From Owenia fusiformis (lineage: Eukaryota; Annelida; Polychaeta; Sabellida; Oweniidae), in the NCBI GenBank assembly GCA_903813345.2, contig CAIIXF020000011.1, positions 28,142,166 through 28,206,165 of the forward strand: a stretch of DNA of 64,000 nucleotides. Reading direction: 5' to 3'. A program made the position numbers and the translations under genes. Positions 14,603-59,354 of the stretch are shown one piece after another. Position 1 is the stretch's first letter. Every line of letters begins with the position of its first letter. The notes under the pieces are model-generated. The model searched no databases. It had not been told where the DNA came from and saw nothing but the letters and a program-made list of their open reading frames with translations.

Positions 14603-14918
14603 ATGAATATCAAAATTTTAGTTTTAGTGTTACATATTGCGTTACTGTTCATAGCAGTTGGATATTCCAAATCAGTGGGTGGAACAAAAAGACATAAGGA
14701 TAATAAAAAACATCATAGGCACCGGACTAACAAAAAAATGGGTAATAGTAATAAACGAACGGGTGGAAAAAAACAATTGAAATTCTTAAGAAAAATTTTA
14801 AGTAGGCTCACACCAGCTCAGGTTCTCAGCTTGAGTAGGAATAAAAAATCTGATGATGCAGAATTTGGAAAATTTATAGAAAAAACAGAAAAGACTGATA
14901 TAAGTATTCCAGAAATTG
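14603..14918 (+). CDS. Exon 1 of a secreted LDLa-domain peptide precursor (signal peptide and basic region)
   Basis: This is the first coding exon, 105 codons plus one base. Seen: the ATG at 14603 has a G at -3 and is followed by a hydrophobic stretch (residues about 4-20), a classic signal peptide likely cleaved near residues 21-24. The mature start is very basic, with dibasic sites KR 29-30, KK 35-36, KK 44-45, KR 51-52, KK 56-57, RK 63-64 and KK 81-82, and a histidine-rich patch at 31-40. Residues 58-80 could form an amphipathic helix. The exon ends at a strong donor (G|GTAAGT), leaving phase 1, which matches the phase 1 acceptor of the LDLa exon at 43024 and creates an Asp codon. Known: basic, dibasic-rich secreted precursors are often cut by furin or prohormone convertases. 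Inference: a neuropeptide-like or growth-factor-like precursor. An extra cassette exon between the two cannot be excluded. Confidence 0.8.
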
Positions 14919-27065: not shown

Positions 27066-27478
27066 CATCATATGAATGTTGTGATATATCTATCTTTCAG
27101 GGATTGTATTCATCCAGGAGGATATTTTGAAATATGAATGTTGTGATATTTCTTTCAGGGGATGGTATTCATCCAGGGGCATATCATGAAATATGAATGT
27201 TGTGATATTTCTTTCAGGGAATGGTATTCATCCAGGGGCATATCATGAAATATGAATGTTGTCTTATTTCTTTCAGGGAATGGTATTCATCCAGGGGCAT
27301 ATCATGAAATATGAATGTTGTGATATTTCTTTCAGGGAATGGTATTCATCCAGGGGCATATCATGAAATATGAATGTTGTGATATTTCTTTCAGGGAATG
27401 GTATTCATCCAGGGGCATGCCATGAAATATGAATGTTGTGATATTTCTTTCAGGGGATGTCATTCATCCAGGGGCATG
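27066..27478 (+). repeat. 59-bp minisatellite carrying an acceptor-like TTTCTTTCAG in each unit
   Basis: About seven units of ATGAATGTTGTGATATTTCT, then TTCAGGGAATGG, then TATTCATCCAGGGGCATA. Each unit includes a pyrimidine tract followed by CAG|GG, a good 3' splice site shape, in the transcribed orientation. Confidence 0.85.
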
Positions 27479-43023: not shown

Positions 43024-43184
43024 ACTGCCCATCAGCGGAAGATGGAATGAAACTATTCCCATGCCCAAGCCCCGATGATTATGGCAGATATGTATGTATA
43101 GACGATCATGCACTATGCGATAAAAAGAAACAGTGTCCGAAAGGTGAAGATGAGGACCCTACTGTTTGCATGTTCCATACCATG
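43024..43184 (+). CDS. Exon 2: LDL-receptor class A (LDLa) module
   Basis: This exon continues the precursor as residues 106-159. Seen: it follows a pyrimidine-rich AG acceptor (TTTCTGTTTCCAG) and ends at CATG|GTAAGT, in phase 1 and out phase 0. It has exactly six cysteines, at predicted residues 107, 119, 130, 137, 143 and 154. They sit in the LDLa order F-x-C, C-I, L-C-D, C-P-x-G-E-D-E and C. The acidic cluster GEDED and the CD pair correspond to the calcium-binding positions of the family, so the module looks intact. Known: LDLa modules are secreted or extracellular calcium-stabilised folds of about 40 residues. From memory, arthropods have a short secreted protein with one such module ending in C-M-F and a helical tail; this exon also ends C-M-F. 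The in-frame extension past 43184 is intronic. No frameshift or stop is seen. Confidence 0.85.
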
Positions 43185-47689: not shown

Positions 47690-48690
47690 GTTAAGTACAG
47701 TACAGTGTAATACAGTACAGTGCAGTGCAGTGTGGTACAGTACAGTATATTACAGTACAGTGCAGTGCAGTGTGGAACAGTACCGTATAATACAGTACAG
47801 TGCAGTGTGGTACAGTACAGTATATTACTGTACAGTGCAGTGTGGTACAGTACGGTATATTACAGTACAGTGCAGTGTGGTACAGTACAGTATGTTACAG
47901 TACAGTGCAGTGTGGTACAGTATAGTATAAATCAGTACAGTGCAGTGTGGTACAGTACAGTATATTATCGTATGATCTGTAAAATGAAGCCTTCTGATTG
48001 GTCAGTTCTTGTGCTGTACCAATCTGTATTGCTACTGAGATTGTCCCCGTTGATCATCTCCGTCGCAATACAGAAAATATTGGTACGGAGGGGACAATCT
48101 CAGTAGCAATACAGAGGATCACACGATAAAAACGTTATTGAATGATTTGAAGTGCAATACAGGATATATTCTGTCTCGATATTCTATATTGGCACTCGAC
48201 TTCGTCTCGTTCCAATACGGAATTTCTCGAGCAGAATATATCCTGTATTGCACTTCAAATCATTCAATAACTTATAATACAGTACAGTTCAGTGTGGTAC
48301 AGTACAGTATAATACAGTACAGTGTAGTGTGGTACAGTGCAGTATATTACAGTACAGTGCAGTGTGGTACAGTACAGTATAATACAGTACAGTGCAGTGT
48401 GGTACAGTACAGTATATTACTGTACAGTGCAATGTGGTACAGTACGGTATATTACAGTACAGTGCAGTATGGTACAGTGCAGTATATTACAGTACAGTGC
48501 AGTGTGGTACAGTACAGTATGTTACAGTGCAGTGCAGTGTGGTACAGTATTGTATAAATCAGTACAGTGCAGTGTGGAACAGTACAGTATAATACAGTAC
48601 AATGCAGTGTGGTACAGTACAGTATAATACAGTACAGTGTAGTGTGGTACAGTACAGTATATTACAGTACAGTGCAGTGTACTGTACAGG
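47690..48690 (+). repeat. GTACAGTGCAGTGTGGTACA minisatellite, about 1 kb
   Basis: Units of about 45 bp made from the words TACAGTACAG, TGCAGTGTGG and TATATTACAG. It is split by unrelated fold-back DNA at 47969-48271. Absence of stops keeps several false frames open. Confidence 0.85.
47969..48271. mobile_element. Fold-back insert inside the GTACAGT minisatellite
   Basis: Two consecutive hairpins. The first has perfect 25-bp arms at 48024-48048 and 48090-48114. The second has perfect 40-bp arms at 48134-48173 and 48232-48271. TTAT flanks both sides (47965-47968 and 48272-48275), a possible target duplication. No coding capacity. Confidence 0.6.
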
Positions 48691-54500: not shown

Positions 54501-55227
54501 TTCAGCCACAATATTCCCAAGTAATATAATACAGGGTAACTTAAGTCCATATAATTCTTAAATTGCCACAGTGTTCACCAAGTGATACAGGGTAACCATA
54601 CACCCAGAATCATAGAAATGATATGTACAGGTATTCATTTCTACAACTTACCCATGAATAAACCATCACCTTGTAATACCCCAAAAATTGAAAATTGGTA
54701 GGAATATGTAGAAATGACCATTAGATAAGGAAAACAGGTCTTGAAACCTTTGCATAGAGTTCCAAAACTAAGTAAAATCCACTTAAACAGCTAAAAACTC
54801 TAGAGAATGTCTTAGAATAAACAGACCCCGATTGATACTTAAAGTACAAGGAAGATAAAAGTTTTTTAGCCCTTGATTTCCGGGTATCCAGCATGCTTAA
54901 TAGTAACCATAGTGTTAAAGTAGGAAACACCTGCATATCATATCACCCTAACATAACAAACCATGAAATAACCCACTCTCACTCCACTAGGAATAATTGT
55001 TTATTCAAAAAGAAAAGATACACTCCTTGAGTAAATAAACAAAACTAGAGTAGAACTCCTATTATAAACATTGAAAAACTGATTTGGGTTCCGGGTTATA
55101 GATTTCATACTACTGGATACAATATGATATTAAAATCATTTGATTATGGTTGTCAGATTTTTTTCTGTTTCAGTGTAAATTCTGGATATTGCATGAAATC
55201 CATAAATCAAATCCATTTCTACAACAC

Positions 55228-55960
55228 ATACAGCTGTATACGTACAACAAAACATACAGCTGTGCATGTATACCAGCAAATACAGCTATACATCAACACA
55301 TACATCTGTACATGTACTCAAACACTTACAGCTGTACATGTTTATCAACACTTACAGCTGTGCATATATACCAACACATACAGCTGTATGTGTACACCAA
55401 CACGTACAGCTGTACATGTACACCAACACATACAACTGTACATGTTTACCAAAACATACAGCTGTACATGTACATCAACATATACAGCTGTACATGTACA
55501 CCAACACATACAGCATGTGCATCAACACATACAGATGTACACCAACACATTCAGCTATACATGTACACCAACACATACAGCTGAACATGTACATCAACAT
55601 ATACAGCTGTACATGTATACCAACACATACAGCATGTGCATCAACACATACAGATGTACACCAACACATTCAGCTATACATGTACACCAACACATACAGC
55701 TGAACATGTACACCAACATATACACCTATAAATGTATATCAACACATACAGCTGTACATGTACATCAACACATACAGTTGTACATGTATAACAACACATA
55801 CAGCTGTACATGTACATCAATACATATACAGCTGTACATGTATATCAACACATACAGCTGCACGTCTACATCAACACATATGACTGTACATTTTGCTGTG
55901 AGCATCAACACATATAGCTGTACTTGCACTTCAACATATATGGAAACATCTTGTACTGAT
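55228..55960 (+). repeat. 26-bp minisatellite ACATACAGCTGTACATGTAC, about 28 copies
   Basis: Each unit has the E-box CAGCTG and the palindrome TGTACATGTACA followed by CCAACAC. A 26-bp period shifts the frame by one each unit, and no frame meets a stop. The same Y-S-C-T, T-A-V-H and I-Q-L-Y words therefore rotate through all three forward frames, giving a false 290-codon ORF. Confidence 0.85.
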
Positions 55961-56099
55961 TTAAATACAAAAATGAAAATAAAAGATATAATGTAACTGT
56001 ATTTATTTGTGTATATGTTCATGTTGCTTTTACCCTGACCCCTAAGGTTATAGCTTTACATGTGTTCATATTAAATACCCCTCCACACTGAGTACAACC

Positions 56100-57343: not shown

Positions 57344-57808
57344 ATATCATTTTGGATCGTGGTTACTATAGTGACAGGAAGACTTCCATCACAAACCTCA
57401 TGCTTCCTATCCTCTGTAAGACACCATCACTTTATTTTTTACAACCTGACCTGAGGTGGATTATGTCATAGTGAATAAAGAAACATTCTACTTGAGATGA
57501 AATGTTTAAATTGAATAAAGAAGCATTCAGATGAAATAAAAAAGCACTCAGATACCAGAGAAAAAAATGATAGAAAAATTATAAATTTTATGGAATAGAA
57601 AAATTCAAATCCACCCGGGTTAGCATTTCATTTGCTAAAATTTTCTCATTCTTCTGTCTTTGTCACGCTCATTTTTGAAATTTGACATCATGAGGTTTGA
57701 AAATTGTTGGTGTCTATGCCATTAGCTCCCTCTATACCTGTAGAATAGCTAGTGTCTGGTTCTGTTCCGTTGTTGATTTTGTATAGCTTATTAACTTATG
57801 TTTTTCAG

Positions 57809-57877
57809 ACAATGAATTACTTCAGATCCACTTTGGATGTTGTCATTAAACTCTCTCGCCAAGTACACGTAGGCTAG
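57809..57877 (+). CDS. Alternative last coding exon A of the LDLa precursor
   Basis: Twenty-two codons and a TAG stop, following an AG acceptor with a T-rich tract (ATGTTTTTCAG). Joined in phase 0 to exon 2 it gives a 181-residue precursor. The tail starts TMNYFRSTLDVV and ends in a basic stretch with Gly last. It shares the first five residues, the acceptor position and a spaced D-x-V and S-R pattern with exon B, 195 bp downstream (about 9 of 20 residues identical by eye). No AATAAA lies between its stop and exon B, so a transcript using this acceptor probably continues through exon B as 3' UTR. The choice would then be between two 3' splice sites rather than two poly(A) sites. The C-terminal Gly after His-Val could in principle be amidated, but there is no dibasic site beside it; that is speculation. 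Confidence 0.65.
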   Translation, partial: TMNYFRSTLDVVIKLSRQVHVG

Positions 57878-57941
57878 CACTAGTTAATAACACACACATG
57901 GGGAATTCTGTTGCACATCCGACCACCATAGCGACTAACCT

Positions 57942-57955
57942 GTTACCATGGTAAC
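57942..57955. promoter_or_regulatory. Perfect X-box palindrome GTTACCATGGTAAC between the two last exons
   Basis: A perfect 14-bp palindrome with two RFX half sites, placed between the stop of exon A and the acceptor of exon B. It could be a DNA site, an RNA hairpin affecting acceptor choice, or a trace of a repeat. Confidence 0.4.
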
Positions 57956-58003
57956 CGTTCACACGCTGGTAACTGAAGCAGTTTTGTCTGGTTTCATTTT
58001 CAG

Positions 58004-58066
58004 ACGATGAATTACTTCAAAGTGTTAATGGACGCTGTATTTGGTATTTCCCGCTCGATTGTATAG
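58004..58066 (+). CDS. Alternative last coding exon B of the LDLa precursor
   Basis: Twenty codons and a TAG stop directly after the acceptor TTTCATTTTCAG, phase 0, giving a 179-residue precursor when joined to exon 2. The tail begins TMNYFKVLMDAVFG and reads as an amphipathic helix with hydrophobic residues every three to four positions. Its V-L-x-D-A core resembles, from memory, the C-terminal helix of arthropod LDLa peptides better than exon A does, so B may be the ancestral version and A the diverged duplicate; this is inference. The polypyrimidine tract is stronger than that of exon A. An antisense open frame crosses this exon but has no support as a gene. Confidence 0.7.
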   Translation, partial: TMNYFKVLMDAVFGISRSIV

Positions 58067-58247
58067 CGGTAACTCTGGGCTGTATCGTCGCAGCCTCATT
58101 CTGGTGGCCAGCGTCAACTGACTGACCAATCACAACCAAACACACATCCTGCATAGGCAGACGTAACAAACAATGTAGTGATTGGTTACTGATTGACACA
58201 CCTTCAAATATCAAGCCTGAACTGACAGGTCAACATCACTAAGTCAT

Positions 58248-58263
58248 GGTATCCATAGCAACC
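58248..58263. promoter_or_regulatory. X-box-like site GGTATCCATAGCAACC
   Basis: Third member of the cluster, 180 bp after exon B. Another, GTAACCATAGCAAC, lies at 58408-58421. Confidence 0.35.
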
Positions 58264-58294
58264 AGTTAGTCATGGTCCCCATGACGACTGGGTG

Positions 58295-58300
58295 ATTAAA
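58295..58300 (+). terminator. Possible poly(A) signal ATTAAA of the LDLa precursor gene
   Basis: It is the first acceptable variant signal after exon B, about 230 nt past the stop. No canonical AATAAA is seen close downstream, so the true 3' end is uncertain. Confidence 0.25.
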
Positions 58301-59354
58301 ATATCAGAGGGAGGAGATGGAATGGCAGCAATGGATATAGACAGAACAGCCAAAAAAGAGTCCAAAATACCCTAATTTTTCAAAGTGCTGCAATAACGAT
58401 CATTGCAGTAACCATAGCAACTGGTACAAAACCTATCCAATGCATCATCTGCCATGTTTGATGAGAATTTAAAGAACGGCTTAAAATCAAGAATTGCTAC
58501 AAGTTCACCTTTGTAAGTGGGCTTGGTGGCATATATCAGAACATGATGAAAAATTGGGAAATCATAGTAACTGATTCATTTAATGCCTTTTTCTTAAGAT
58601 AAAACATATGGTTCGCTTTCCGTGTGCGGAAGTATTGACTGCATTCCATCAGATTGTAAATCAGATCATGAAAAACATGCTTTTTATCAAGTAGTCTAAA
58701 CTTTTAAAGAAACATTATTCTAGCGAGAGTCATGATAACTGAGTTGAGCTGGTGCACCCAAGGATAAATGTTGGAGTAAAACTCCACCAAAATATGTTCA
58801 ATACATTATCCCTCCTCCAGAAATTGGTAGTGATATTGAAAGTAAAACATTTTTATTTAATTTTAAAGACATCCTTAATCCTTGATGTGACCCACTCATA
58901 TGATAAAATGATAATTAGAAATACTTTTGGTTTGAGATTACACTCTTTGGATGTTCAGTTTAAACAATTTTGGTTTGGATGCTGATATGTCTAATTTCCG
59001 CTTTATTGCAGTGGTCAATTGAACTTATATCACTGGCAGATGATAGCACATATTGGAATAGTACAATACCAGATTTAAGAGCTGAAACTTTAATAGTTTC
59101 TACATCTAAGGGTATTTTAACACATTTTTGGTAGCCACAAAATTCTAACTTTTAGGAACCTCCCGGTTTCTACATGAAGATTGCTGTATGAATGACAAGA
59201 AGCAATTGAAAGTCACTTATTTATAAATATTATATATATGAAATTGTAATTTATTTTTTAAAGAAACTCGTAATTTATGTGTAATCTCAACGACATTGAA
59301 TGATACCTGGTTGTCATAGTTATGGGTGATTATGAAAATTCTATTTATTATCCC

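Follow-up and report, generated by a model that had tools for sequence, protein, structure and literature searches.

Can a single gene of this locus give a secreted precursor two different C-termini? The question is raised by two short open frames, here called tail A and tail B, in the window, i.e. the whole stretch of 64,000 nucleotides that was analyzed (C11:28142166-28206165). A sequence-only reading had placed them right after AG dinucleotides at 57809 and 58004, 195 bp apart, and both coordinates and the distance were confirmed. The frames also end in TAG, as had been stated, and fit the phase required by the LDLa exon, whose donor at 43184 has phase 0. The gene can be read on the forward strand as three coding exons, namely exon 1, the LDLa exon and a tail that starts at either of the two positions (Table 1), and the joined exons stay open with intron phases 1 and 0, giving 181 residues with tail A and 179 with tail B. 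The translation of exon 1 opens with the hydrophobic stretch MNIKILVLVLHIALLFIAVGYS, read from the sequence, and this start is likely a signal peptide.

Table 1. Coordinates of the gene, its tails and the other features discussed (window positions unless preceded by C1 or C11)
Feature	Position	Strand	Remark
Exon 1, coding part	14603..14918	+	likely signal peptide, then a long basic pro-region without Cys; phase-1 donor G/GTAAGT
Tandem array	about 27159-27395	+	~59-bp units, repeated frames GMVFIQGHIMKYECC after AG
LDLa exon, 161 nt	43024..43184	+	six cysteines; phase-1 acceptor TTTCCAG, phase-0 donor ATG/GTAAGT
Palindromic boxes GTNNCYATRGNNAC, six	57329, 57362, 57942, 58249, 58408, 59355	+	
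23-nt block, copy 1	57802..57824	+	spans acceptor A
Tail A, 22 residues	57809..57877	+	TMNYFRSTLDVVIKLSRQVHVG then TAG; opens after TTTTCAG/ACA
ATTAAA inside tail A	57845..57850	+	chance hexamer most likely
23-nt block, copy 2	57997..58019	+	spans acceptor B
Tail B, 20 residues	58004..58066	+	TMNYFKVLMDAVFGISRSIV then TAG; opens after TTTTCAG/ACG
ATTAAA, first after both tails	58295..58300	+	candidate shared poly(A) signal
Paralogous gene	C11:26759220-26760655	-	likely signal peptide, then YLLGS, KR site and short piece (exon 1) up to LDLa exon
LDLa exon of the paralog	C11:26759220-26759381	-	
Six weak LDLa-type matches, within 48 kb	C1:29364820-29412466	-	E 0.1 to 1.6

Splice sites were scored throughout with simple matrices not trained on this genome. 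A phase-keeping internal exon of 30-240 bases was sought between 43184 and 57800, and none was found at an acceptor threshold of 3 and a donor threshold of 4.5, values that would miss the exon 1 donor and acceptor A. The lower thresholds 2.8/4.0 and 2/3 again gave none (0 and 1 on the opposite strand), and since the most relaxed scan, at 1/2, gave two candidates compared with one on the opposite strand, there is no sign of an extra internal exon.

A short open frame of about 20 codons behind an AG is unremarkable by itself, and the window has many pairs of frames, no more than 500 bp apart, that begin with the same five residues (103 on the forward and 15 on the reverse strand), most of those seen sitting in tandem repeats. 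When both acceptors were required to score at least 0, there were 11 pairs on the forward strand and none on the reverse, ten of the 11 in one array near 27.2 kb; when both were required to score at least 2.8 (47 frames on the forward strand and 40 on the reverse), tails A and B were the sole pair. Tandem Repeats Finder gave no array across the two tail frames. Elsewhere in the window, at 55049-55996 and 47711-48627, there are long open frames built from short units in tandem that resemble TAVHVHQHIQLYM and VQYSILQYSAVW; these frames are probably not genes.

The two tails have in common the block TTTTCAGACnATGAATTACTTCA, which crosses the splice site and is identical between the copies in 22 of 23 bases. 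A search of the window that tolerated up to three mismatches found these two copies only, and 100 shuffles gave none. Across the whole genome (498 Mb, covered by all genome-wide searches) it has six matches at this level, two of them here, and the four others are at chance level because the reversed control also gives four. Its local DNA score of 41 was reached twice when 490 length-matched random pairs were drawn from this repeat-rich window. On the protein level, the 20 ungapped residue pairs of the tails score 49 with BLOSUM62, a value reached in none of 200,000 permutations, and the next best among 2,395 post-AG frames of 12-40 residues from both strands reach 14 when compared with tail B and 18 when compared with tail A. 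Genome searches with the DNA of 57700-58150 and with tail B as protein (E up to 10) each returned the query itself only; the protein search is a weak one for tails, since tail A stayed undetected too.

It had been proposed that the tails share their first five residues and then diverge. The first five are indeed shared, but the likeness continues: in the ungapped alignment D10, V12, S16 and R17 are common to both tails, the pairs R/K, L/M, L/I and V/I are conservative, and residues 6-20 have a BLOSUM score of 20, which was reached in 116 of 200,000 permutations. A neutral simulation, in which codons 6-20 received the same 26 changes in 45 bases as are seen between the tails, reached this score in 136 of 30,000 runs from A to B and in 93 from B to A, and for residues 6-17, an end point picked after the alignment was seen, the corresponding counts were 495 and 375 of 30,000. 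Identity alone is not unusual, either in residues 6-20 (4 of 15; 5,219 and 4,440 of 30,000 neutral runs) or in residues 6-17 (7,997 and 5,647 of 30,000). The NG86 method gives dN 0.52 and dS 2.18 for 20 codons, dN 0.39 and dS 1.32 for 17 codons, and thus a dN/dS of roughly 0.24-0.30, a rough value for tails that are very short and near saturation.

One could also suppose that only some 23 bp around the acceptor were copied and that the frames behind them are unrelated, the tails having been recruited from intron or UTR. Nucleotide identity does end sharply at the block, more than half of the bases of codons 6-20 differ, and the flanks resemble each other no more than random stretches of the window do (local scores of 18 upstream and 16 downstream, matched in 224 and 377 of 487). 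Residues 6-20, however, still score as high as few permutations did, and we consider a copy restricted to the acceptor improbable. Given this lack of likeness in the flanks, the duplication would be an old one of which only the coding part is still visible. The proposal that a 3'-terminal coding exon was duplicated with its frame kept is well supported by the block, by the score of the whole tails and by the dN/dS ratio, and the tail frames are likely homologous coding exons.

How the two tails would be chosen depends on what lies between them. A search for 12 poly(A)-type hexamers found none that begins in 57846-58294. The earlier statement that there is no poly(A) signal between the frames is true for 57851-58294 over these 12 hexamers, but tail A itself holds an ATTAAA at 57845. 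Since no poly(A) hexamer separates the frames, the layout is that of a single terminal exon with two 3' splice sites in competition, and the description as tandem alternative last exons should be replaced accordingly. The same lack of a hexamer implies that a transcript spliced at acceptor A would run through tail B and leave it as 3' UTR.

From these results we favor, with moderate confidence, a three-exon secreted precursor with an old tandem duplication of its terminal exon, in which the donor at 43184 joins either acceptor. The terminal coding exon would have been duplicated in tandem long ago, and the LDLa donor would now be joined at 57808/57809 or at 58003/58004. Use of acceptor A would yield the 22-residue tail A, with tail B staying in the 3' UTR, use of acceptor B would yield the 20-residue tail B, and both mRNAs would end at one downstream poly(A) site. 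As a common poly(A) site is possible, the C-terminus would depend only on which acceptor is chosen. It is plausible that a single gene yields two C-termini in this way.

It may be, though, that just one tail is used, most likely tail B, and that the other, left over from the duplication as a relic, is still open because it is short. Acceptor B, with a score of 5.66, ranks 5th among the 843 AGs between 43185 and 59000 and acceptor A, with 2.84, ranks 17th, and tail B may be the default since its acceptor outscores the other. Besides, a short frame behind an AG easily stays open, and identity past residue five is not significant alone. A relic would nevertheless have to have kept its acceptor, phase and stop, all of which are intact in both tails; D10, V12 and S16 are kept although the third codon base differs between the tails at each of them, and the similarity past residue five was seldom reached in the neutral runs. 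We therefore regard the use of a single tail as rather unlikely. Tail A could also be an internal exon spliced to tail B, in a protein with two consecutive tail units, and it does contain two phase-0 GT sites before its stop, at 57863 and 57869. They are poor donors (-2.72 and 0.97, compared with 5.78 for the LDLa exon and 4.32 for exon 1), so that the joining of both tails in one protein is disfavored and, in our estimate, very improbable.

The six palindromic boxes GTNNCYATRGNNAC are confined to about 2 kb around the tails, with none elsewhere in the window and 0.18 expected per window, and the box at 57942 sits between tail A and tail B. We take these boxes to resemble RFX X-box sites. They might pair in the RNA and aid the choice of acceptor, but the fold of 57760-58080 gave no support for this, being ordinary (z 0.46; 66 of 100 shuffles fold equally well or better). 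As a separate observation, GTTRCCATRGYAAC has 3,897 forward and 4,021 reverse matches genome-wide (palindromic sites counted twice), with 17 and 13 for the reversed control, and several of the matches listed are spaced in pairs by exactly 159 bp, the distance that also separates the related window boxes at 58249 and 58408. GTTRCCATRGYAAC possibly marks a family of repeats or a very large collection of regulatory sites. A genome search with 58060-58600 of the window found itself only.

The products themselves offer a few hints. Both tails are free of Cys, but they are short. Their helical moments are raised, 0.45 each (equalled in 511 and 266 of 20,000 shuffles), which suggests that the tails are possible amphipathic helices; they may differ in function. 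The LDLa exon gave 18.7 bits (E 0.0021) with Pfam Ldl_recept_a, below the cut-off of 24.1, and the whole protein brought no Pfam family above a cut-off. A search of solved structures returned weak matches only, the best at E 0.026 (LRP1), and an AlphaFold prediction of the LDLa exon alone, from a single sequence, was too poor for use (pLDDT 50.6).

The genome holds a paralogous gene about 1.4 Mb from the window gene, whose introns likewise have phases 1 and 0 and whose LDLa exon is 45% identical. Its LDLa exon gave 22.2 bits with Pfam Ldl_recept_a (E 0.00017), also below 24.1, and found 14 matches in the genome, 12 of which, beyond the two genes, are weak (best E 0.0013). A search for the tail of the paralog in the 59 kb behind its LDLa exon gave nothing above the opposite strand (best 25 vs 27, and 20 vs 20.5). 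Judged by architecture, the paralog looks like the canonical prohormone-4 class and the window gene like the prohormone-4-like class of Conus, and of the two the paralog is the stronger candidate for this genome's canonical prohormone-4.

According to passages of PMC8398477 and PMC6891753, prohormone-4 has a signal peptide, followed by short peptides flanked by basic sites, then an LDLa module and finally a tail free of Cys, which has so far been described as part of a "precursor-related peptide" (passage of PMC6891753). The window gene resembles such prohormone-4-like precursors, which the sequence-only reading had not named, as they appear there, in its likely signal peptide, its abundant basic sites, its six-cysteine LDLa module and the Cys-free C-terminus that either tail would give. 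Its longer part before the LDLa module recalls the Conus prohormone-4-like class, for which a longer pre-LDLa part and a different mature sequence are described in a passage of PMC6891753, or, according to PMC5450551, no apparent mature peptide. Unlike prohormone-4 as presented in those passages, it lacks an evident equivalent of the short mature peptide: inspection by eye of the window gene revealed nothing between its basic sites that clearly resembles IDLSRFYGHFNT, MSVDFSRL or PYLLS, and for this reason we do not assign it to the prohormone-4 family. Its tail of 20-22 residues also differs from the long tail of the oyster precursor in the passages covered. Possibly the gene is instead Jeb-like (Jeb/HEN-1, LDLa ligands of ALK), Jeb being reported from most protostomes in a passage of PMC7851593.

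A second tail, such as the window gene has, goes unmentioned for prohormone-4 in the passages of PMC8398477 and PMC6891753, and no report of a two-tailed prohormone-4 was noticed in the literature passages covered. The sole "splice" passage found in PMC4018349 concerns CHH, words starting with "splic" or "isoform" are absent from the main text of PMC6425005, and among the listed papers matched on short sequence strings none looked like a relative as judged by title and abstract. Should both junctions prove to be in use, a hormone-like gene that has been little studied would give two products distinguished by their C-terminus alone, which would point to the Cys-free tail, besides the short N-terminal peptides, as a site where activity or targeting is set. 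A bolder and doubtful extension, which we offer tentatively, is that competition of 3' splice sites lets a prohormone-4-like hormone, in what is probably an annelid, alternate between two amphipathic C-terminal tails, as an independent counterpart of the CHH/ITP isoform switch; if this is true, the tail would be a functional and regulated piece of the precursor. An annelid is probable since the genome has three matches above the cut-off to PF16915, the annelid haemoglobin-linker family, one of them with an internal stop, compared with none in 14 control genomes.

Tails A and B are adjacent, equal in phase and apparently homologous, as tandem-duplicated exons are. In Drosophila pip, mutually exclusive clusters of terminal exons are described in passages of PMC9013439, and the window gene likewise appears to have tandemly duplicated terminal exons within one gene. 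In these passages pip has eight clusters, serves as a UTR example and is linked to competing RNA structures, whereas the copies of the window gene are two in number and coding, and the fold of 57760-58080 is not unusual. The neurohormone genes CHH/ITP of crustaceans and insects, in the passage of PMC2841656, have a tandemly duplicated exon, and alternative splicing swaps the C-terminal part of the product. CHH/ITP is another peptide family, whose isoforms are shown there by cDNAs; the copies of the window gene lie 195 bp apart, and neither a poly(A) hexamer nor a good donor was found between them. Both have, as far as that passage goes, a tandem-duplicated exon that changes, or in the window gene would change, the C-terminus of a secreted product, and since CHH/ITP and pip have it, the arrangement of duplicated alternative exons is of an already known kind.
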